This document shows, piece by piece, positions 19,301 to 64,000 of a stretch of DNA of 64,000 bases (the stretch's first letter is position 1; every line of letters starts with the position of its first letter). Below the pieces are notes generated by a model that saw only the letters and a list, made by a program, of their open reading frames with translations, was not told the origin of the DNA and did no database searches. This stretch comes from Magnolia sinica (Eukaryota > Streptophyta > Magnoliopsida > Magnoliales > Magnoliaceae). Location of the stretch: contig NC_080577.1 of assembly GCF_029962835.1 (NCBI RefSeq), positions 7,354,501 to 7,418,500 on the forward strand, in the 5' to 3' direction. Made by a program: the position numbers and the translations under genes.

Positions 19301-22300
19301 CCGGCCAAACGGGCCCTTAGCTCTTTTGGGCAAGTGGTGGCGGCGGTTTGGGGTGGAGAAGGATGCTCCTTGGAGAGAGATTATTGGAGTGAGTATGGAT
19401 GTTCTGAAGGGGGTTGGTGGACTAGGGAGTCCTCTCTTTATAGGGCATTGGTGGTGTGGAAAGGTATTTCAAGCGTAAAAGCTAATTGCAAGGAAGGAAT
19501 GGCCCTTTTGTTTGGGGAATGGAGAGAGTATCAAAATTTGGGAAGATGTATGGAGGGGCGACATACCCTTTCATATCAGATTGCAAACATGGCCCCGAAC
19601 TGAAGTGTCACGGGTGATCGCTGCTATAGTTATAGTGATGAGTTGGTAATGCAAGGGCATTTTCACACTGGGCTCGAGTGGGGTGGCTTGTGGGATGCAA
19701 GGGCACACTCTGGGTGGGCGGTCCGTGTGAGGCGAGTGGCTTGTGTGAAGTGGAACCCATGTGAAGTGGGGCCTACGAGGGGGGTTCGGCTGAGGTCCTA
19801 ACACATGGGATGTGGGGCCTGGGCTATATAAAGGGATTGATTCGCCTCAGTTCGAACTTTTAGAGCAAGTTGTTAATTGTCCTGCATCAAAGTGGTATTA
19901 GAGCGGGAGGTCTCGTGTTCGAGACTCCTCATCGGGGGTGATTAATGCAAGAGCATTTTTACACTGGGCTCGAGTGGGGTGACTTGTGGGATGCAGGGGT
20001 ACACTCGGGGTGGGCTGTCCGTGTGATGCGGGCCCCACCCGTGTGAGGCAGGCGGCTTGTGTGAAGCGGAACCCATGTGAAGTGGGGCCCACGCAATGTT
20101 TTAAATATTGATGATATCGGCCGATATATACCACGATATTTCTTGTATCCCACTTGTACGATACGAAACACACCAATAGTGGCATATATACTACATGTTC
20201 GATCCGGTGAGCATTTTTTATTTTTCGATCTTTTTTTTTTTTTTTTTTTGTAAATCATGTTAAATTAGTGTCAAATTGTTACAAATCCATGTTTTATCAT
20301 GTTTTGCATGAAAAATCATGGATTAGGAGCTTTGATTTTGAGATTTGGAGAAGGACCAAGTTGCAGAAATTTGAAAAAGATTAAAATTTTCCCAACTTCT
20401 AGCAAATCGGTTGCAATTTGTGTCCAAACACAAAATCAAACATGTATGTAACCTGATTTTGTGATTCTTCTTTTGCTTTTGACTGTATTGCTTGTGTTTC
20501 CACACGTCTTCTTACATTTATAAATTATATGAATAAACTTTGAATATACTTGCATCAATTCAGTTAGACAATGCATAGATTAGGACCCTATATAAAGAAA
20601 ACCTATTATGTGCACTTGTTTTTTGTAATGTTTTGATTTGTAAGTGTGTATTAATGTCTTTTTTTTAACAATCATTGAAATTTCATTGAAAAAATCGACC
20701 AATATCCAATGTTTCCCCATGTTTCCAACAACAACGATACATTATGCGATACAACTGATATATCCCATGCGATAATCGATACTTATTCGTATCCCAAGGG
20801 TGCGATATGTAACGCGATACCGATATTTCAAACACTGGGCCCATGAGGGGGGGTTCGGCCGAGGTCCTAACCCATGGGATGTGGGGCCTGGGCTATGAGA
20901 TAAAGGGATTGACTTGCCATGCTCTATCAGTTTGAGCTTTTAAAGCAAGTGGTTAATTGTCCTGCATTAGTTGGTGGTATGGGCCTCGCCGCGCCGCCGT
21001 TACCTTCATTACAATGAGCTGGACGAGTTCATGGCTCTTATGGACTGCTTGCATTGTTGAAGACCTATGGTTAATGAAAGCGATAGGATCGTGTGGTCTA
21101 AAGAAAAGTCGGGATGCTTCTCGGTTAAATCATTCTATTTCTTACTTCATAACGGAGGGGAAGTGCGTCTCAATATGAGTCACGTGTGGCATTATGGAGC
21201 TCCCCCAAAGATCGGAGCTTTTGGGTGGGTGCTTCTCGGTTAAATCATTAGTTGGTGGTATGGGCCTCGCCGCGCCGCCGTTACCTTCATTACAATGAGC
21301 TGGACGAGTTCATGGCTCTTATGGACTGCTTGCATTGTTGAAGACCTATGGTTAATGAAAGCGATAGGATCGTGTGGTCTAAAGAAAAGTCGGGATGCTT
21401 CTCGGTTAAATCATTCTATTTCTTACTTCATAACGGAGGGGAAGTGCGTCTCAATATGAGTCACGTGTGGCATTATGGAGCTCCCCCAAAGATCGGAGCT
21501 TTTGGGTGGTTGGTAGAAAGGAATTGATATTTTACTATAGATAACCTCAAGGAGCGCTCTATGGTGATTCCAAATGTTTGTCTCATGTGCACATCCAACA
21601 CTGAGTCAGTTAACCATGTATTCATCCATTGCCCAGTCAAGTTTGGGCTTCTATTCTATCTGGATTCAATGTCACTTGGTCTATACCTCTCAATGTCGGA
21701 AGTTTATTTATGGCTTGGCATGGGATGCCTTTTTGCAAGAGTCTTAGAGCTGTTTGGACGCTTTATCTTCTTGCTAGGTTGTGGTCAATTTGGGGAGAAA
21801 GGAATGGGAGATGCTTCGGCAATGAAAATAGGTGTGTTGAGTGGATCGTGTGTAATGTTTCGCTTCTTGTTGCGGAATGGGGAATGGGAAAGGGCTGGGT
21901 GCTCTAGTTGTATTCTTGTTTTCGGTCTTTTGCTTTTGTGCTTTCTTGTCTTCTTTAGGGCACTATCTCAGCACCTCTTTTAATGAAATCTTTTGTTATC
22001 TCTCTAAAAAAAAAAGGATATGGTAGAACTCATACTTTTGTTTCAGATTGAAAATTTCTTATGTTTTCTACAGAGCATTCTGCTTTTGGGAAGAAAAAAG
22101 TTCTACTATTCTCTGGTAATTCTGAACTTGCTGATGAATTGATGATCACATCTTTCAGGTTATGACTGCACTGCCCACTGTTGAATTAGATCCCCCGACC
22201 ATTTCCATGACTTTCACTGTCAATGATTCTCCATTGGCAGGACGTGATGGGACCCATGTAAGTGGCAGATTTTTTATTGTCTCTGTCAACTAACTATTTG

Positions 22301-25300
22301 ATTAGTGTAATCTGTGTAGAATATCTGATATTGATAAGGTTCCTGCGTGTTAATAATATCTGTTTCTTCTTGTCATATGTTTATGAGTTGAACTCATGGA
22401 TCTGATTTGAACAAGTGGACAAGAAATCAAAGATTGCAATAGTGTACCTCTTAAGATCTGGACCTGAAGCTTGACCTAAATTTTAGGGGCAGACATCCTT
22501 TTGCCCGTGCTTTCATTTGCCAAGCTTATGCTTTCAAATCTATGACATCAGTTGGCAGGAGTCTGCTGTTTGGTTTACATTGATTGTACCTTTGGCAGGC
22601 ACTGCTTTTTCCCTTTGTTCAGGAAATGGCTAATTAGAGAATCTATGAGCTGTATGTTTACATTTATACTTAATTACCTAGACAAATTAAATAGATATGT
22701 ATACACATATGCATGTTCGAAATCTAAGGCCAAATCCTGCCAAACAGGTAATTCATCTTACTTATTGGTTGTGCTTCTGGGATTCATTTTTGGTAACAGT
22801 ACACCGTATGTCCATAATACGTGCATTGGCCTATTGTTTAATGGTCACCAGCTATGTTTTTCTTCTGGAGTATTTTTTTTTAGACTCTCTATCCAGTGAA
22901 TCTGTTTTGGCTGTGTCACTTGTTGCAGGGAGCTCTTGGGAGTGTCTCTGCACTTGCAGGGAATTACCTTAGATTAGGGAAATGTTCACTGGTGAAAGAA
23001 TGAAAGATTTTGGAACAAACCTAACTGCAAAATCTTAATTCATAGGAAGTTTTGCAGTTGCTGCACCCTATAAATTATAATGATTGAGATGCCCATATTT
23101 CAGTGGACAGCTTAGTTGACAGAAGGGACAAATGGTCTTTCGGTTTCAGTAAGTTCCTCCCAAGCATTTTATTGAAGATTTACTTGTCGAATACTTCTGA
23201 GGAAACCTATCCTGTGCAGTGTGCACAATGATTATCATATGCTTCTGCATCAATAGACATTCATTGATCATTCTCTTTTGGTTGCATTTGTAAGAGGAAT
23301 GCTTCAACTAACATTTGTTCTGTTTGTTGTAAACTTCATTATCATCATCTAACAATTATCCCAACTAATTGAGGTTGGCTACACGAGCCCTGTTTCGCAA
23401 TTCCACTCTATCAAGGACCAAATCCTCATTTAAACCATAGGTCACCAAGTCTTTTCTTACGACGTCCACCAAAGTCTTGAGTGATGACTTCCAGTTGAAA
23501 TTGCCATGAATTGTACAAATATCTTAGAAGTTTGAATAGAAAAGGCATGCCAAAATTTAAAGAATCCTTGCCAAATGTTTTTCTTTCTTTATATAATTAC
23601 ACTCCTAAATTGCTTGTTTTCCTTTGGGAACATTGGGTATGTCAATTCGTTGTGCATGCCATATCTGATTTTCTGCTGGGTCATCCCTGGGACTTCCCAC
23701 TGTCCTGAAATTTTTAGTTTTGTATTTCATTATAGGGTGGAAGCTTCTGACTTGAAGAACTAATGAATCATTAAATTGGTTTGTTGCCTGAGCACTGGTT
23801 TCCACATGTTATTAGCTGATTTCCTTAAATTTACAGTTGACTGGGGGGAAAATTGGTGATCGGCTGATGGCTGAAGCAGAAACAAATCTTGCCATAAACG
23901 TTCTTCCAGGCTTGTTGTCAGAGTCCTACGAAGTACAGGGGAGGGGCGAGCTACAACTAGGTTTGTCCTCCGAGAATTCCCTTTTCTCCCTGTTTATACC
24001 TCCTTGACTCGTTGAGTTTGTGCGAAGAGCTACTTTTTAGATTTACCAAATCTGTGAAGTTCATTGACTGCTCTAATACATCAGTTTAGTTCAGTTATGT
24101 TGCTTGCACTTTTGAAATTCAGGTATCCTAATTGAAAACATGAGGCGTGAAGGGTTCGAGCTTTCTGTTTCACCACCAAAAGTGATGTGAGTTATTTAGC
24201 AAGTTAATGGCGCCCATCCTTTCCTTTCAGTTTCATTTTTCCTGTTCATTTATGAGTTTCAGCATTATGTAGGTGTGTTTAATTTGTATGTTCTATTTAC
24301 TGCAGCATTATTTTCATGCTTCAAAGTTGTAAAAGAAACCAATTTCTTGCAGATTTGTTTTACATATTGCCCAGATTTGCCTATTTCATCATACGGGGTT
24401 GAGCTTTACACCCCCAGACTCAGTTCATGTCTCACATTGAAACCTTTGTGAAATTAACTGAGAAACTCCTTCCCCTGGAAAACATGAGAAATGATGATTC
24501 AACGATTGGATTTTCTTTATCTGGTTAACTCTGGGGAGATCCAATGAAGAGCCTGTTTTGTCTTTTGGGTGAGTGCGAATAGAAAATAAAAGGGTTCAGA
24601 GTGGTTTTAGACAGTAAGTTGGAGCAACTCAAGTCTTAGACCTTGGAAGCATTCATGATATTCTGAGAACTGAGTCTTGATTTGAACTATGTTTTGAAAG
24701 ATTGAATGTATCCTGAGCTACGCTTCTGTACTGGCTGAGTCAAGTTCACTTGGATAGTTTGGGGCAAATTCATTGAGTTTTTGTACCATTAACAAAAGTA
24801 CCTAGCTTTGAAAAACGAATATTTGCGTCTTTTCGTCCTTTTCATTATGCTGAGATGTGAAAATAAACTCATTTGGAAAAAAAGAATAAATTTTATATGG
24901 AACAACTCCTGCATTGGCTGAGTCAAGTTCACTTGGATAGTTTGGGGCAAATTCATTGAGTTTTTGTGCCATGAAGAGAAGTTAAAAGTTAGTGTATTGT
25001 TGTCATTTTTATTATGTTGAGAAGTGAAGAATAAACTCATTTAGAAAAAAAGAATAAATTTTATATGGAATAATGGCATTTAACTTCTCTTCACATCAAC
25101 ATGTTTTTTATAAGTATCCTATGGAACAATGACATGCTTCCAAGGATCTGCCTTTCATGCTATGCAATTGCTTAGTTTGGTCTATTTTCTTTTCTTTCAT
25201 TTTCATTTTGTTTTGTTTTCTTCTTCTTCTTCTTGGGTAAATATGTGGTCTGAGTGGTCATTCTGATCATTGAATCAGGTATAAGACCGAGAATGGTCAA

Positions 25301-41694: not shown

Positions 41695-42863
41695 GCCAAG
41701 TTTCGAAACCAAGCCCACTGACATTAAGGAGTCCTGTAGAGTTACTAGGCCAGTAAATCCTAGTGTGGGACTCAAAACTTGTAATCTTTTCAAGATCTAC
41801 TAATCCACTTTCTTATGTTCTCTTACACTAATTAATTGTTACCGTCTAATAATTAGCAGCACCAAACAGATATAGAGTGGCTTGAGCAGGCACTGGTGTT
41901 ATGGAGTTAGCAAGTCCATGATAAATGGATCACATTAAGTGCCTGTTTGCATACTTTAATTAAAATAAGTTATTTTTTAATTTATGTTTAGTAATTAAGG
42001 TTGTTTTTTGAGTAAGCATTAATGTAAAAGTAACTCATGTGTCAAAAGCTACATATCTTAATAACTAAATTTTTTAAAAAAAAATCTTTTTAACCCATGA
42101 CTTTTCTACTTCTTTCTCACATAGGACATGTGAAATGAGACTCTGCTTTCATGGTCCATATCAAAGGAGGCCTTACGTGGTGGATTGTCCACATTAAAGG
42201 TGGGGCTCACACAGTGGACTTTTCACGTAAAAGGTGGACCCCACATGATGGATGACCTCATTTTAATGTGGGCTCACATATAGATGGTCCACATCAAAGG
42301 TCAACTCATAATGATATAAAAAACTCACATTCAAAGCTGGCTAGTATGATGGACAACCCACTTCAAAAGTGGGGCCTGCATGATGGACGATTCACTTTGA
42401 AGGTAGGCTCTACATGATGGGTAGTGGACATTGAAGCCGGACCCCATATGATGGATGGTCCATATTGAGGTGGTCCCACATGATGGGTGGTTTACATCAA
42501 AGGTCAACCCCCTAATAATGAATGTTGACCCATATCCAAGGCGAGCCCTCTATGATGGGCAACTCACTTTGAAGGTGGGGCCCATATGATGGATAGTCCA
42601 CATCAAAGGTCGGCCCTAATGATGAGTGGCCCATATCCAAGGCAGGCCCTACATGATGGACATCCCACATCAGAGGTGGGGCCCACATGATAGACGGTCC
42701 ACATTAAAGATGGGTCCACGTGATGGGTGGTGGATAGTGAAGGTGGGCCCTACTTGATTAATGACCAACATCAAAGGTGCACCCTACATAATGAATTGTA
42801 CACATTAAAGGTCGGGCCATAATAATGAATGCCCCACATTCTAGGTGAGCCCCATATGATGCA

Positions 42864-43808
42864 TAGGGCTGGTCACGAGTTAAGCTAGCTCGAAAAACTC
42901 GCTCGACTCGGCTTGAGTCAGCTTGGATTGACTCGGCTTGAATGACCTATTCGGGCTGAGTCAAGTTAATTATTTGAAGCTCGAGTTGAGTTCGAGCTGA
43001 GTTCAACCAGGGGGCATTTCAACTCGACTCAACTCAAAGCTTGAACTCAAGCTCGACTTGGCTCGATTAATAAATATAAAAGTTGTGGGGAATGCGGAGA
43101 AAATTGAAGTGGGATCTCTTTGCTTTTACCCCAACAGCGAAGAATTTGATGTTGGTGTTGACAGTCTCTTGAATTCAAAATGGTATATTGTATGGAGCAC
43201 TCACATGAATAGACATATTCTTCCTGAATATGTTGTGAGCTACAAGTCCTCAAATCATCTGCAAGGTAATGAAAACTGCGCTTTTGTTTAAGCAGCAACA
43301 AGGCAGGTGGGTCCCACTTTTTTGTGGTCTCAGGTCCATTCAAAATCCTATCCATTGGAAAGTATGGCCTTGATGATGGGTAATTCAGAACATACAATTG
43401 GAGATGCTTTTGGCTCATGGTTCTTCTATCATAAGGCCTACACAGGTGGATTTTTTGGACTGTTGAAGATGGACTACATCCTGTTTCGGTTGTCGGGCCA
43501 AAGTAAAAATGAATTTCGCTTGGTAGAGCGCCATGTAAAATACATTTAAAATTTTTTATTTAGCTTCTCTTCTGAATCAATGGAGGAGGATCAAGAACAG
43601 AATCCATTACTCTCTCACCCAACAAGCTCGAGTTTAACTCGAGGTAAACTCGACTCGACTCGAACCACTAGCTCGACTCGACAGCTTTGACAAACAAGCC
43701 AAAGCTTCAATGTTGAGCTCGAGCTCAAGCTTGAACTTGAGTATAACATGGACAAGCCAAGCCGAGCTTGGCCCACCTCGACTCGACTCGGCTCGATGCC
43801 CACCTCTA
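42864..43808. mobile_element. hAT-like element carrying an SRO/PARP-like gene fragment
   Basis: The ends TAGGGCTGGTCACGAG (left) and TAGAGGTGGGCATCGAG (reverse complement of right) resemble hAT termini. The flanking 8-bp duplication is ATGATGCA (42856-42863) and ATGATGGA (43809-43816), one mismatch. Both subterminal regions (about 190 bp each) are packed with CTCGA / TCGAG motifs, as expected of transposase-binding repeats. Between them, 43079-43265 encodes part of a host gene. No transposase is present, so it is non-autonomous (a Pack-type element). Confidence 0.85.
43079..43265 (+). pseudogene. RCD1/SRO-family PARP-like domain fragment (captured exon)
   Basis: The frame begins KVVGNAEKIEVGS and continues FDVGVDSLLNSKWYIVW and MNRHILPEYVVSYKSSNHLQ. 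It matches my knowledge of the C-terminal half of the PARP-like domain in plant SRO proteins (pattern GVD.L..PK.Y.IW..NMN..I.PE.VVS.K). It ends at CAAG|GTAATG, a good splice donor, so this looks like one exon plus intron start. Upstream exons and the RST domain are absent. Further open frame at 43307-43549 is not recognised. SRO proteins act in stress and developmental signalling through transcription-factor binding; this fragment alone is unlikely to function. Confidence 0.75.
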
Positions 43809-44204
43809 ATGATGGACAACCCACATCAAAGGTAAGGCTCATACAATGAGTGGCTCACATCAAATGTTGGCCCCATATGATGGATGGTGGATGTGAGATA
43901 GACCAAGCAAACTTAAGGGATAATTGCTTGTGATGCTGCAAATCAAACATGCTTATTTACCTTTTAATTGATAAATAATGTTCATTGTTAAACATATAGA
44001 AGAAATAAGTAGAAACCACTCTAAGTTAGTTACCGCATACATAGCTTACATAGCTTGTCGACTGATGAGGATAGTTAAATAAAATAAAAGCGGTGGCCGC
44101 TTCGGATCATCACACACACGTGCCACTTGTATGGTAGTACAAACTGTCGTGGCCCGTCATGAAGTGGATCGGACAACCGAGTCAAAGCGCACAAGTGAAC
44201 AAGA

Positions 44205-48082: not shown

Positions 48083-48124
48083 CGACACTTTCCTTCATAA
48101 AGGCATGAAGAAAACAGAGTAAAG

Positions 48125-48526
48125 ATGCCAAACGATCGGGTTAGAGAGGCTACTAGGGCACCGAAGGCCAATGAATGGACGACCGTTCGACCCAAATGCC
48201 ACAATAAGGAAGAGAGGAGCCTCTTCGTGGGGAACTTAGCATTCGAGGTCTTTGATGACGATTTGCGGAAGAGGTTCGGACAGTTCGAGGATCTCACAGA
48301 CATATACATTCTGCTCATAGCTCCATCCGAAAGGAAAAGGGGATATGAGTTAACGTTTGTGAGGTTTTGTCGGAAGAGTGATGCCCTTCAAGTGAAGGAA
48401 ATGCTCAACGATAGATTCTTGGGTCGACGCAGAATGTATGTCAACGACGCATCTTTAAGAACCATCCTCATCTTCACCCCAGCCCCAAGACAGGAACCCA
48501 GATTTGCCAGTAACAGCCTCTTGTAG
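48125..48526 (+). pseudogene. LINE ORF1 N-terminal part with RRM-like domain
   Basis: The 133-aa frame has RSLFVGNLAFEVFDDDLRKR, in which LFVGNL is RNP2, and RGYELTFVRF, a degenerate RNP1. LNDRFLGRRRMYVNDA follows as the end of an RRM fold. RRM-type ORF1 proteins are known from a subset of plant L1 elements and bind the element RNA. After 48526 the frame shifts, and the remainder of ORF1 (to about 49940) is scattered over frames, so the ORF is broken. Confidence 0.7.
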
Positions 48527-50179
48527 GATAGTCGACGCCCTCATCCCTCCAATTTGCCCACCAGGGGTCGAGGGGACCCTAATCTCAATCCACCCTTTGT
48601 ATCTACCACCAGATTGTATGCGGATGCCCTTCACCCACCCAAACCACCCCCAATATCCATCTCCATTATTTTTCCTAAGTGGATATCGGACCAAGGAAAG
48701 GCAAACATGAACTATGCTCTAGTGGGAGAGGTCCACGGTTCTATCGATGCAACAAAAGATTTATACAAAGCTCTCTAATCTTCTCCTTTCAATAACAACC
48801 AGATCTAGATATTTCGAGCTTCAGCAACTACATATATTCTTAGATTTAATTCAAGAGAAGATGCCAACGCTTTCTCCAGAGACTGTCCTCTTCGGCTCAA
48901 AATGTCACTTAAAAACACCTGCACATGGGGTCCTACCATGTCCATCCTTGGGAAGGGAACGTGAATCCGAATTGAGGGAATTCCCATCCATGCCTGGAGC
49001 GAGCACACCATTGGCCAAATCGTAGAGGAAATGGGTACTGTTATTGAATTGGATAGATGGTCGGTGGAAGGCACAAATCGTTGGTATGCCAGGGCCAAGA
49101 TCAATCTTCATCAAGACAGTCCTCCCATTAAAAGGATCAACCTCCTGGTTGATGGGAGATCTTTCCTGGTCACAACATTCGTTGATTTCTACCCCCATTT
49201 AGGCTTGGAGACATTGACTCCCATGGCCACTCGCCAACACGAAAGAAGGAACAAAACAATGGGTCACCAGGGCGTTCATTGGCATGCAGCAAGGGCGAGC
49301 AGAAGATGATGGAAAACAATTGTTAGCTGAACAAAGTCAACAAACGGGCCAACAGGAACGCCTCTAACCTGTTTGTCAAAATGCCGCTCAGACAAATCCG
49401 AACGCTGAAGATCTCCAAATTATCGGGTTTTAACTCGTATTAGAACCTTCAAGCTAATAATGAAGATACCTTTCCTCTCCAGCTCCAACACCAAACTCTC
49501 GTCTTACCACCCCAGCCAGTCTCTACTGCGGCAAGTGAGGAAAACAGGATCACCTTTCTAGTCTCCTCCTTAGCCCCTCAATTAGGCAGGCCATCGGTAA
49601 GCAATAATGTTATGTCATCTGATTCTAACGTGCAGGTTTCAGCTCATATTCCAAATCAGGCGAATCAACTCTTACCTCCCACTCCAGCCACTTGGATCAG
49701 GCCTTCTACGGAAGTCCTAGAAGCTTGGGAGAAATGGCTCTCAGGAGTTAAAGAATTGTTCCGGGAGAGTCCAGCGAGGCCGCTGAACTTTTCCTCCCCT
49801 GTCCCAATTACCATTGCCGCAGACTGTTCTAAGTCTCCCAACAGGGACCTTATGTATGTCATGGACGTTGTAGCGGTGGGAGAAAGCCAAGGAAAAGCAT
49901 TGGGGACCTCGGAGATGGAAGGCAAGGACTCTTATTAGTTAAGGAAGAAATTGGTAGAAATCACGAATGAAGATCTTAGCCTTTGGGTTGATATTCAGGG
50001 TTCAAAATGCTCACTGGAAAGGTCAACCTTAGGTTCTAGCATGATATCTTTAAAGGACAAGCTAGGAAAAATTAAGAAGAAGGTTAGAAAAAATCTTCCG
50101 AAACTTAACCTCATCAATAGGAAAAGTCAGAGGTTGAAGAGCAAACACAAACGGTTTGAGAATAGGGGCTGGGTTACTG

Positions 50180-53100
50180 ATGATTAGTATCTTGTCCTGG
50201 AATGTGAGGGGGGTAGGCAATGCGCTAACTACCCAGTTTTTGAGAAATCTTATCAGAAAACACCAGATTGAGATCCTCCTGCTGTAGCAATGATGATCCG
50301 GGATGCTAGGAAAGCAGCAGTAGCCGCGAAACTGGGATTCGCCAAACAGATTTCTGATGATGCGATTCAAAACAAAATCTGGATCCTGGTTAAGAGTCAC
50401 ATCCAGCTCCAAACAATTCGTTCCTCCTCTTAATGCATCACCATCAAAGTAAAGTCAGACATTTCTACCCTCTCGGCAACCGTCACCATTGTTTACGCTA
50501 GCTGCTCTAGAAACCTTAGAGTTCAGCTCTGGGATGAACTCAGGGAGACGTTCCGAATCACCAGGGGTCCTTGGCTAGTGTGTGGGGACTTCAACACTAC
50601 TACATCTCCCGACGATCGTCTTAGTGGCCCTATCCACATGTTAGGATCAATGTCCGATTTTCAGGAGGCTATTACCGACACCGGCCTGATTGATGCGGGT
50701 TATTCAGGCTCCCCTTTTACTTGGTGCAACAACCGGCCTGGCAGTAGCCGCCGATGGGCCAGATTGGACAGAATGTTCATTAATGCTGAGTGGATAGCTG
50801 CAGTCCCCCATTTTAAGGTTGATCATCTCACGAGAGCCTTCTCAGATCACTCCCCTATTCTCCTCAGCATCAAAGGTGAGTCCATAAATTTCCCTCGTCC
50901 GTTCAAATTCTAAAGGATGTGGACTACACACGATGGCTTCATGCAATTGATTAAAGACAGTTGGACCACCGGGCCTGCAGCCTCTCTCATGTTCAGGCTT
51001 CATATCAAATCGAAAATTCTAAAAGCTATGTTGAAGGCATGGAACAAGGAAGTCTTTGGTAACATTTTCAGAAATGTTCAACAGGATGAAAACGAGGTCA
51101 ATAGAGCTGAACTCCTTCTCCTTAACTCTCAAAGTCAAGACAACCTCATCCAGCTCAATCTAGCGCACGCAAAACTAAAGAAGGCCCATTTAGAAGAAGA
51201 AATTTTCTGGAAACAAAAATCCAGGATCACGTGGCTGGAGGAAGGGGATAAAAACACAAAGTTCTTCCACAATTTTGTCCTGGACAAGCATAGGCGTGCT
51301 TCCATTAACCAGCTGAAAAAATCTATAGGGGAAACTATTATCATTGCAGAAGACATAGGAGAAGAGGCTGTTAAGTATTTCCAGGAGCTCTTCTCGTCGG
51401 AGGGAAGCCACTTATCGAGCCATATTCTCAACAGCATCCTGAGATTGGTGGGTGATCGTATGAACGAGTTCCTCACTAGACCTCCAACCATGGCCGAAGT
51501 TAAGGCGACTGCCTTTGCTATCCCGATTGACAGCGCCCCCAGGCCTGATGGATTTGGAGGGGCCTTCTACTCTTCATGCTGGGAAGTGATAGGAGAAGAT
51601 ATTCTTCATGCGGCCAAAGATTTCCTCCAGGGAGGCCCGATCCCTAGAGCGTTTCAGTGCACCCTTCTTTGCCTCGTTCCTAAAAAAAAGAATCTAGAGT
51701 ATGTAAAAGACTTCAGACTGATAAGCTTATGCAATTGCATTATGAAAATATTCTCCAAGTTGTTGGCATCCAGGTCGGCTCACATTTTGCCCATGCTCAT
51801 ATCCAAAGAGCAATGCGCTTTTGTCAAAGGTAGATCAATCACAGAGAGCATTTCCTTAGCTAAAGAGATGGCCCATGAGATTGACCGCAAGGTATATGGT
51901 GGTAATCTCATCATCAAATTGGATATGGAGAAAGCGTATGATAGAATGGAACGAGACTTCATCAATCAATTGCTTTAGAAATTCGGCTTCAGCCCTCCTT
52001 GTATAGCTCAGCTTCAGCGATGCTGGAAAAATATCAACTTCTCTGTTCTCATCAATGGAAGAAGCTTCGGTTTTTCCAAAAGCACAAGAGGTCTCTGTCA
52101 GGGAGACCCTCTCTCTCCATCCATATTCATTCTTGTAGCTAAGGCTTTAAGTAGAGGTGTGGCTTCTCTGTTTGCGTCAGGGAGCTACCAACCTTTCCAC
52201 CTTCCCAAATCTTGTCCTACCATTACGCACCTATTTTTCGCTGATGATGCAATTGTTTTCCTGAATGGCAGGCTAGCTAATGTGAAAAATCTCCTCAGCT
52301 TCATTCGAGATTATGAAATCTCTTTAGGCCAAAGGGTCAACACAGCCAAAACTACCTTCATTGCTCCAAAGAAAACATCAAGGAGAAAAGCCCAGCGACT
52401 TTTCAACATATCAGGCTTCTCCCGAGGCTTCTTCCCCACGTCTTATCTGGGCATTCCCCTCGCCAAGGGTAAAATCACGAGGCCGCTGCTGCAGCAACTT
52501 GTTCAAAAGATTACCAACAAGATTGATGGATAAAAAGCTAAATTACTCAATCCAGCAGCCAGATTAGTCTTAATTAGACACGTTCTCTCAAGTATTCATA
52601 TTCATCTCCTGTTAGCAATCAACATTTCGAAGGTAGTTAGTAAATCTATCGACAACGCGATTGCTAACTTCTTTTGGGGTAGTTTGAATCAAGGAAATAA
52701 GAGACACTAAATCAGTTGAGATAAAATTTACGCCCTTTTCTAAGAAGGCGGATTGGGAATTCGTAAAATGGAGGAAGTTATGCGTGCTCTTAGAGTCAAA
52801 ATGACATGGAACCTTATCAGAGGTATGTCCCTCTGGGCCAATTATTTTTCAGCGGCTTATCTATGGAAATTCTTATCTCGCCATGGCAGGTCCCGTTCCT
52901 GCTCTTCCCCCACCTGGAAGGAAATCGCCAAGGTGTTGCCCTTCACTCTCCGTCATTCCAGATGGCTCATTGGAACGGGCCACCTAAGCTTCTAGTTCCA
53001 CAATTGGTCGGGAAACGGGATCTTAGCTGGAGCTGTCATTTCGTGTATCCCTCCACAGTTATTGCAGACCTCAGTCAGTGACTTCCATCCTATCTCGGGC

Positions 53101-53600
53101 AGATGGAAATTATTAGATATTTAGGATTTGATTCCCCCCCCCAATGGAGACCCTGCTGGCCTCTAAGGTTGCGTTTTACAACTGCCCAGACAAGCTCATT
53201 TGGGACTTAACTACTTCTGGCGACTTCTCAGTTAAATTTGCTTGGAATGGCATCAGACGGCAACTCCCTAGGATCCCTTGGTCATCTTGGATCTGGAATA
53301 AATTCCTTCCTCCTAAGCTAACATTCTTTGCTTGGAAAACATCTTGCAAGGCGGTCCCTATTGATGCGATAGTCCAGAAACTTGGAGTTTCGATTGCCTC
53401 GAAATGCGAGTGCTGCAGGTTTCCCCAACCTCTGAGTTCGGCGCAAATTCCTGACATCTCTAATGACCACCCTCCTCTTCAACCCCAAGTTGACACCCTC
53501 CATTCAACAGTCAGCTCTCCCCTGCTTCTCAGATCCACAGCAACCAGCCGTCTAATCCCGGTATTCCCAGCCCTCTAGGTGCGGAGGAGACCTTGAACCA
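50180..53600 (+). pseudogene. LINE ORF2: endonuclease and reverse transcriptase, broken
   Basis: ORF2 starts ATG-ATT-AGT with MISILSWNVRGVGN, the usual APE-endonuclease start, and meets a stop at about 50285. The endonuclease continues at 50578-50913 (CGDFN; SDHSPILLS). RT occupies 50917-51978 and 52159-52533, with the FADD active site at 52237-52248. The connection region and zinc-binding end follow to about 53600 in shifting frames. The element was competent once; at least five interruptions are visible. Confidence 0.85.
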
Positions 53601-53942
53601 TCTTTTTTGCCAAGGAAAAATTGCCAGTCGTGTCTGGGAATTCTTCAGCAGACTTTTCGATATTCCTCTTATCCAGGAATAGCCTATCCTTCCCAGGTTC
53701 ATGCTTTGGACTACATCTGCTAGTCTCAGCTCTTGCTCTGCAATTTTCTCGAGCCTCCTTCCTAACTTGGTTAGTTGGGAGCTTTGGATTAGTAGAAATG
53801 CTGCAAGATTCGAGGGGCTCAGTATGTCCGCCAGTAAGATCATCTTCAGAGTTTCTCATTGGTTACGTGAGATTGGATCCTCCATTCCAATCTCGGATAG
53901 TCCATCTATGACCGAGATCGCTATCCTCAACTACCTTCAGAT

Positions 53943-54497
53943 TTGCAACCCGACCCTTCCTCCCCAGCTAAATCGATTATCGTCAGATGGACCAAACCCC
54001 CAAAGGACTGGCTAAAGCTTAATGTTGATAGTTCTTCGAGAGGTAATCCGGGTGTAAGCGGCGGAGGAGGAGTGTGTTGGGATCACTTCGGTAACCTCAT
54101 TTTTGCTTTTCACAGGTTCTATGGGATTACCTCAAACACGATGACTGAAGCCCGGGCAATGCTTGATGGGTTAAATATTTGCTCCAACCTGGGTCTCGCC
54201 AACATTGTGGTGGAGTCCGACTCCAAGCTTATTGTCGCAGTAGCTGAGGACCTTTCTTATTCCATTCCTTGGAAAATCTGGTATATTATGGGGGATATTT
54301 GGTTCAAAATTCAGAGCCTTAACCCGTCTTTCTCGCATATTTTCCGTGAAGGTAATGCCGTAGCTGATGCTCTCGCGAGACTGGCTAGTGAAAGGTACCC
54401 GGACACTACCTTCAGAAGTCAAGCCTTGCTCCCTAGGCACGTTAGAGGTGAACTTGTTTTAGATAATACAGGCTTGGGTTATGTTAGATCTCCTTGA
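53943..54497 (+). pseudogene. LINE RNase H domain
   Basis: This 184-aa frame reads WTKPPKDWLKLNVDSSSRGN, then TEARAMLDGL, VVESDSKLIV and HIFREGNAVADALARLA. These supply the D-E-D-D/H pattern of the RVT_3-type RNase H found at the C-terminus of some plant LINEs. The domain itself looks intact although the upstream ORF2 is broken. It is not a host gene: it lies immediately before the element's A tail. Confidence 0.85.
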
Positions 54498-63300: not shown

Positions 63301-63682
63301 TACACTGCCAAAGCACTTTTTCTTTCTCTATTTTTTTTTTTTTTTCTACTTATCTTTATTTCTATCTTTCTTGTTTTATGTAATGGGGTCTGAATCAACA
63401 GGAGTTTCTTGTTGTAGTTTAATGGGTATTTTTTTGTTTTATTTTGGGAGGAGGATAGTTTTTCTTTTATTTTTTCTTTTTAATTGAATGGGGGAGAAAA
63501 TGGAACAGGAAGTAGGTGAGAAGAGAAAGTCTCTCACTATAAGAAGGGCTTCTGATGTCTGCCTCGAGAGGTCTCAGTCCTAGCGACAATCTGTAGAGTT
63601 CTCTCTTTCTTTTTCTCAGCTACCCTTTTGCTCCTTTCCTTCCATTACCATCATCATCTCATCATCAAAGAAAACATCCATC

Positions 63683-63812
63683 ATGGCCTCTTCCAACAGA
63701 CACTGGCCTAGTATGTTCAAGTCCAAGCCTTGCAATACTCACCACCAATGGCAGCATGAAATCAACTCATCCCTCATGTCCAATGCATGCCAGAAGACCT
63801 CATACACGTCAG
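63683..63812 (+). CDS. WOX9: WUSCHEL-related homeobox protein, WOX8/WOX9 (STIMPY) type, exon 1 (partial gene)
   Basis: The ATG (context CATCATGGC) opens MASSNRHWPSMFKSKPC, followed by HHQWQHEINSS. This N-terminus is diagnostic for plant WOX8/WOX9 proteins. The exon ends at ACGTCAG|GTAATC (phase 1) after 43 codons, and the homeodomain exon lies beyond the window. WOX8/9 are nuclear transcription factors that maintain cell division in embryos, meristems and inflorescences. Reading through the donor gives a His-rich tail and a stop at 63923, which does not match the family and is taken to be intron. The upstream region has a (GA)n tract, TATA candidates and short upstream ORFs. Confidence 0.88.
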
Positions 63813-64000
63813 GTAATCATCATCATCATCATCATGAACATCATGTTCTTTTTGAGACCATGTGGCCCACTTCCTTAGTTACACCACCACAATACTTTGA
63901 TAGCAGAGTGATAACCTGTTATTGATATTTCTCTTTCTTTTCAGTCGCATACTGTTAAAATGTTGCATTTTTCGGCTTCCTTGAAAACCAACAAAATCGC

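Follow-up and report, generated by a model that had tools for sequence, protein, structure and literature searches.

Capture of genic sequence by hAT elements has been reported in grapevine, maize and animals. The grapevine hAT family Hatvine-6 contains transduplicated genic sequence (PMC2528002), and Pack-hATs have been documented in maize, including one hAT element that lengthens an exon of a maize gene and gives it a novel splice donor (PMC8903248). Among animal Pack-TIRs, 208 of 370 were associated with hAT elements, and gap or repair filling as well as template switching have been proposed for them (PMC8277862). For plant Pack-TYPE elements, growth via tandem insertion and re-mobilisation has been proposed (PMC8903248). 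An earlier note on the DNA studied here had held that hAT-mediated capture is little documented, which was an overstatement; because such capture has already been published for these hosts, the claim of rarity is weaker than first put forward. hAT gene capture is a documented kind of event, and the present case adds one example. The SRO family is described as plant-specific (PMC8490783), and this, along with the general character of the window, suggests that the DNA is of plant origin. In the open-access literature, we found no paper joining SRO/RCD1 with transposon capture, and such an event may still have been reported.

Here, we analyzed a 945-bp insert at positions 42864-43808 of the window, i.e., the whole 64-kb stretch of DNA under study. 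The observation of a hAT-type insert carrying an SRO-like coding stretch was confirmed, and its coordinates were exact as first given. The short terminal inverted repeats (TIRs) of hAT elements start with the consensus YARNG. The 5' TIR (TAGGGCTGGTCA, 42864-42875, plus strand) was identical at 9 of 12 positions to the opposite end (43797-43808, minus strand; reverse complement TAGAGGTGGGCA), and the terminal pentamers, TAGGG and TAGAG, both fit the consensus, in agreement with the hAT-type termini claimed before. The insert is flanked by an 8-bp target-site duplication (TSD), ATGATGCA on the left (42856-42863) and ATGATGGA on the right (43809-43816), recognized by comparison of the ends and by a test of array phase (see below). 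The two copies are identical at seven of eight bases. When all candidate YARNG pairs in the window with a spacing of 200-3000 bp were considered, three out of 30,781 reached the thresholds for both TIR (at least 8/12) and TSD (at least 7/8). Such ends and duplications by themselves are not rare, and hence not decisive. The 945-bp element had 8 and 14 CTCGA/TCGAG motifs in the outer 220 bp of its left and right sides, respectively, and both other passing pairs had none on either side.

Additional hAT-like features were noticed elsewhere in the window. A second non-autonomous candidate of the hAT type, belonging to another family, is located at 20094-20837, with ends CAATGTTTTAAA/CAGTGTTTGAAA (10/12), flanks GGCCCACG/GGCCCATG (7/8) and, by eye, TATCGG-like subtermini. 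A TIR/TSD pair at 22926-24006 is weak (8/12 and 7/8) and probably due to chance. Close to these, a tandem duplication at 20965-21509 (281-bp unit, 1.9 copies, 100% identity) is either very recent or an assembly artefact.

The element interrupts a minisatellite that extends over approximately 42160-43900 (limits set by eye; 42443-42758 according to Tandem Repeats Finder). The period of this array is about 34 bp, since among lags of 25-109 the identity exceeded 0.4 at 34 and 101 only. The flanks are rich in ATGATGGA: 21 sites resembling this 8-mer with up to two mismatches were found in 42100-42863, counting the left TSD. Because the element lies in such a minisatellite, the TSD alone is weak evidence. 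Together with the three end pairs mentioned above, this abundance would also suit a reading in which no transposon was inserted at all, and in which ends of chance likeness and ATGATGSA motifs of the minisatellite happen to surround a degraded SRO pseudogene. The phase of the array argues against it. Using a 34-bp consensus built from 10 units hand-picked on the left of the element, we compared the flanks joined with one or both 8-bp copies. With one copy, the unit spanning the junction fitted the consensus at 25-26 of 34 positions, compared with 18 when both copies were kept, and the following unit gave 23 and 4 matches, respectively. Among 60,960 34-mers outside the array, the mean was 8.4 (SD 2.6) and the maximum 23, with eight scoring at least 20. 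Thus, the minisatellite unit comes back into phase when the insert and one 8-bp copy are removed, so that the array serves as its own empty-site control, and eight base pairs were duplicated at insertion, as predicted for a hAT element. The 8-bp duplication proposed in the earlier note therefore holds, at 7/8 identity and with the array phase restored. The array phase is strong evidence for insertion, and since it returns only on removal of one copy, and the motif-dense arms described below run to the ends of the element but not past them, we regard the reading by chance as exceedingly improbable.

Short subterminal repeats on both sides are a trait of hAT elements, and they are present on both sides of this insert. 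The left arm (42864-43075, plus strand, approximately 212 bp) and the right arm (43620-43808, plus strand, 189 bp), whose inner limits are approximate, are dense in CTCGA/TCGAG motifs. Of the 43 CTCGA sites in the window, 17 are inside the element. When both motifs are counted, 22 of the 89 occurrences in the window lie in the arms (401 bp in total) and the 544-bp middle is devoid of them, which bears out the dense subterminal CTCGA motifs that had been described. The motif-dense sequence extends to the element ends and stops there, with no continuation outside. In addition, the two arms pair imperfectly with each other (31 nt at 81%, 16 nt at 94% and 19 nt at 84%, among the 11 inverted pairs listed). 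The distribution of motifs and this pairing point to a non-autonomous element of roughly 400 bp whose two arms are separated by foreign sequence.

The same arms could be viewed in another way, namely as two adjacent hAT MITEs that moved, via their outermost ends, together with an intervening SRO gene or pseudogene fragment as a macrotransposon. Both arms are MITE-sized, and tandem insertion followed by re-mobilisation has been proposed for DNA acquisition by Pack-TYPE elements (PMC8903248). Such an arrangement needs inward-facing inner ends, one in reverse orientation near 43075 and one in forward orientation near 43620, but none of the six internal 12-mers that match an outer end at 8/12 or better is so placed. 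The one closest to a junction, a forward 8/12 match at 43080, has the wrong orientation, and the sole internal match of 10/12, at 43781, lies inside the right arm. It is possible that inner ends were once present and have since decayed; overall, we consider a macrotransposon unlikely and favor a single element with a captured block.

This captured block of about 545 bp (43076-43619, plus strand; limits approximate) is free of CTCGA/TCGAG motifs and contains a coding stretch similar to the PARP-like domain of SRO/RCD1 proteins. The open frame at 43079-43265 translates to 62 residues, which matched the PDB sequences of RCD1 (5ngo, E 4.4e-11) and SRO1 (7plq, E 1.4e-10) with approximately 45% identity (26/58 and 25/55 residues, respectively). 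The similarity spans 43082-43255, begins at IMGN of RCD1 and covers chain positions 129-186 of the 194-residue construct, which corresponds to the last (C-terminal) third of the PARP-like domain. The reading of this translation as a plant SRO PARP-like domain, put forward in the earlier note, was thus upheld. When the PARP regions of RCD1 and SRO1 and the RST region of RCD1 were used as queries against the 64 kb, the sole strong match was the stretch inside the element (58.2 bits, E 3.5e-13), so that no SRO exon was seen to run on beyond the TIRs. As a control, the best score over 300 shuffled elements (299 with any hit) was 23.1 bits, compared with the observed 58.2. For other SRO exons in the window, the next best match to these PARP and RST queries was 24.3 bits (E 0.10, 7766-7722), and the best match to RST was 18.9 bits (E 1.3). 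Pfam gave no family for the 62-residue frame or a longer 96-residue frame, and the SRO assignment therefore rests on the PDB sequences. Scans of viral and prokaryote contigs for the exon gave 4 and 77 pattern matches, respectively, with no relative confirmed; these scans are uninformative on plants. Membership in the SRO/RCD1 family, for which the PARP-like and RST domains should occur in one protein, was also considered and rejected, as only the C-terminal third of PARP is present. The PARP-like stretch is a captured fragment and no SRO family member.

The likely exon limits were examined as well. A canonical splice donor, AAG/GTAATG, is present at 43265/43266, as had been noted, but the accompanying claim that the coding stretch stops there is weakly tested: the frame is open up to 43288, and the PDB construct extends just 8 residues past the match, so that the end of similarity at the donor is weak evidence for an exon end. 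On the other side, an AG dinucleotide without a pyrimidine tract is found at 43081-43082, where the similarity starts. If this AG served as acceptor, the exon would be 183 nt in length (43083-43265, plus strand) with phase 1 at both ends. A possible retained intron (43266-43563, plus strand), predicted from the sequence, would run from this donor to a possible acceptor, TTTTATTTAG, ending at 43563. Reading by eye the sequence after this acceptor revealed no obvious likeness to an SRO region, and the frame at 43550-43687 matched no Pfam family. The remainder of the middle block may be an intron of the same SRO gene, and the entire block presumably came from one SRO gene. The exon limits were deduced from the sequence, because a published account of SRO gene structure gave exon counts rather than residue positions.

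A PARP exon that is complete, phase-symmetric (1-1) and bounded by two splice sites might act as a mobile cassette that adds an SRO PARP segment to host transcripts or interferes with them, or that silences the parental SRO gene by small RNA. We regard this proposal as decidedly unlikely, and action of small RNAs on the parental gene is speculation. Compatible with the capture described here, yet very improbable in our view, is that such a cassette is functional at present, its PARP exon being spliced into a host transcript or giving small RNAs against the parental SRO gene. The frame is open across the stretch, the donor is canonical, an acceptor is possible, the length is a multiple of three, and exon shuffling by Pack-TYPE elements is on record (PMC8903248). 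On the other hand, the possible acceptor lacks a pyrimidine tract and open frames of such length are common, with 42 of at least 110 residues (stop to stop) in the window. Moreover, the nearest recognized host gene upstream is a BipA-like gene whose last match, a weak one (E 0.011), lies approximately 10.6 kb away. It is most likely that the element today is an inert pseudo-exon passenger.

With regard to the neighborhood, this upstream gene (10256-32216, plus strand) encodes a BipA/TypA-like GTPase, presumably with an organellar leader, and its introns are long. The Escherichia coli BipA query gave ten matched stretches on the plus strand between 10514 and 32216, of which the weakest three had E values of 0.01-0.08. 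Downstream, the element lies approximately 4.3 kb ahead of the RRM frame that opens a LINE-like stretch. In this stretch (48101-54494), RRM (PF00076), endonuclease, reverse transcriptase and RVT_3 exceeded the Pfam cut-off and DUF4283 was slightly under it; we take it to resemble the BNR type. Near the end of the window, an open frame at 63584-63922 contains MASSNRHWPSMFKSKPC, which resembles the beginning of WOX8/9 homeobox proteins, and had no Pfam match. Neither Rfam, at its gathering threshold, nor a tRNA scan gave any hit in the window.

Taken together, the element is very probably a non-autonomous hAT-superfamily transposon with a transduplicated SRO exon, i.e., a Pack-hAT. Host coding DNA captured between TIRs, which is the mark of Pack-TYPE elements, is represented by the SRO PARP-like stretch, and the ends, the TSD length and the arms point to the hAT superfamily. 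No transposase was recognized: none of nine frames of or around the element matched a Pfam family (for six of these, within or overlapping the element, at E 1), and the longest frame (170 residues, minus strand) had no PDB match at E 1. No second copy of the element was found in the 64-kb window. We suggest that a short hAT element with CTCGA-rich arms took up between these arms a piece of a host SRO gene, about 545 bp in length, that would comprise the exon for the end of the PARP-like domain and an apparent intron. The capture may have occurred through filling-in during break repair or through template switching, presumably before insertion at the present site, although capture by an element already sitting there is possible. 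The enlarged element would then have been mobilized by a hAT transposase acting in trans and inserted into the 34-bp minisatellite array, where the 8-bp duplication was made. The locus thus offers a well-delimited case of hAT-mediated capture, in which the minisatellite landing site provides a built-in empty-site control. Its importance would grow only with proof that the exon is transcribed or spliced, or that it gives rise to small RNAs directed at an SRO-type gene of stress signaling.

Several known systems can be compared with this locus. Relative to the SRO/RCD1 PARP-like domain (5ngo, 7plq), the element shares approximately 45% identity over 55-58 residues of the C-terminal third, but it contains a fragment, and other PARP parts and RST were not found in the window. 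Animal Pack-TIRs similarly consist of a TIR element enclosing host sequence (PMC8277862), although their hosts are animals and their parental copies are known. Hatvine-6 members are also hAT elements with a variable region that matches host introns and exons (PMC2528002); they have a common transposase coding sequence, whereas none was recognized in the present element. The maize Pack-hATs differ in genome and captured gene, and the present element occurs in a single copy in the window, but they resemble it in being non-autonomous, with hAT-type TIRs, an 8-nt TSD and captured coding DNA inside (PMC8903248).
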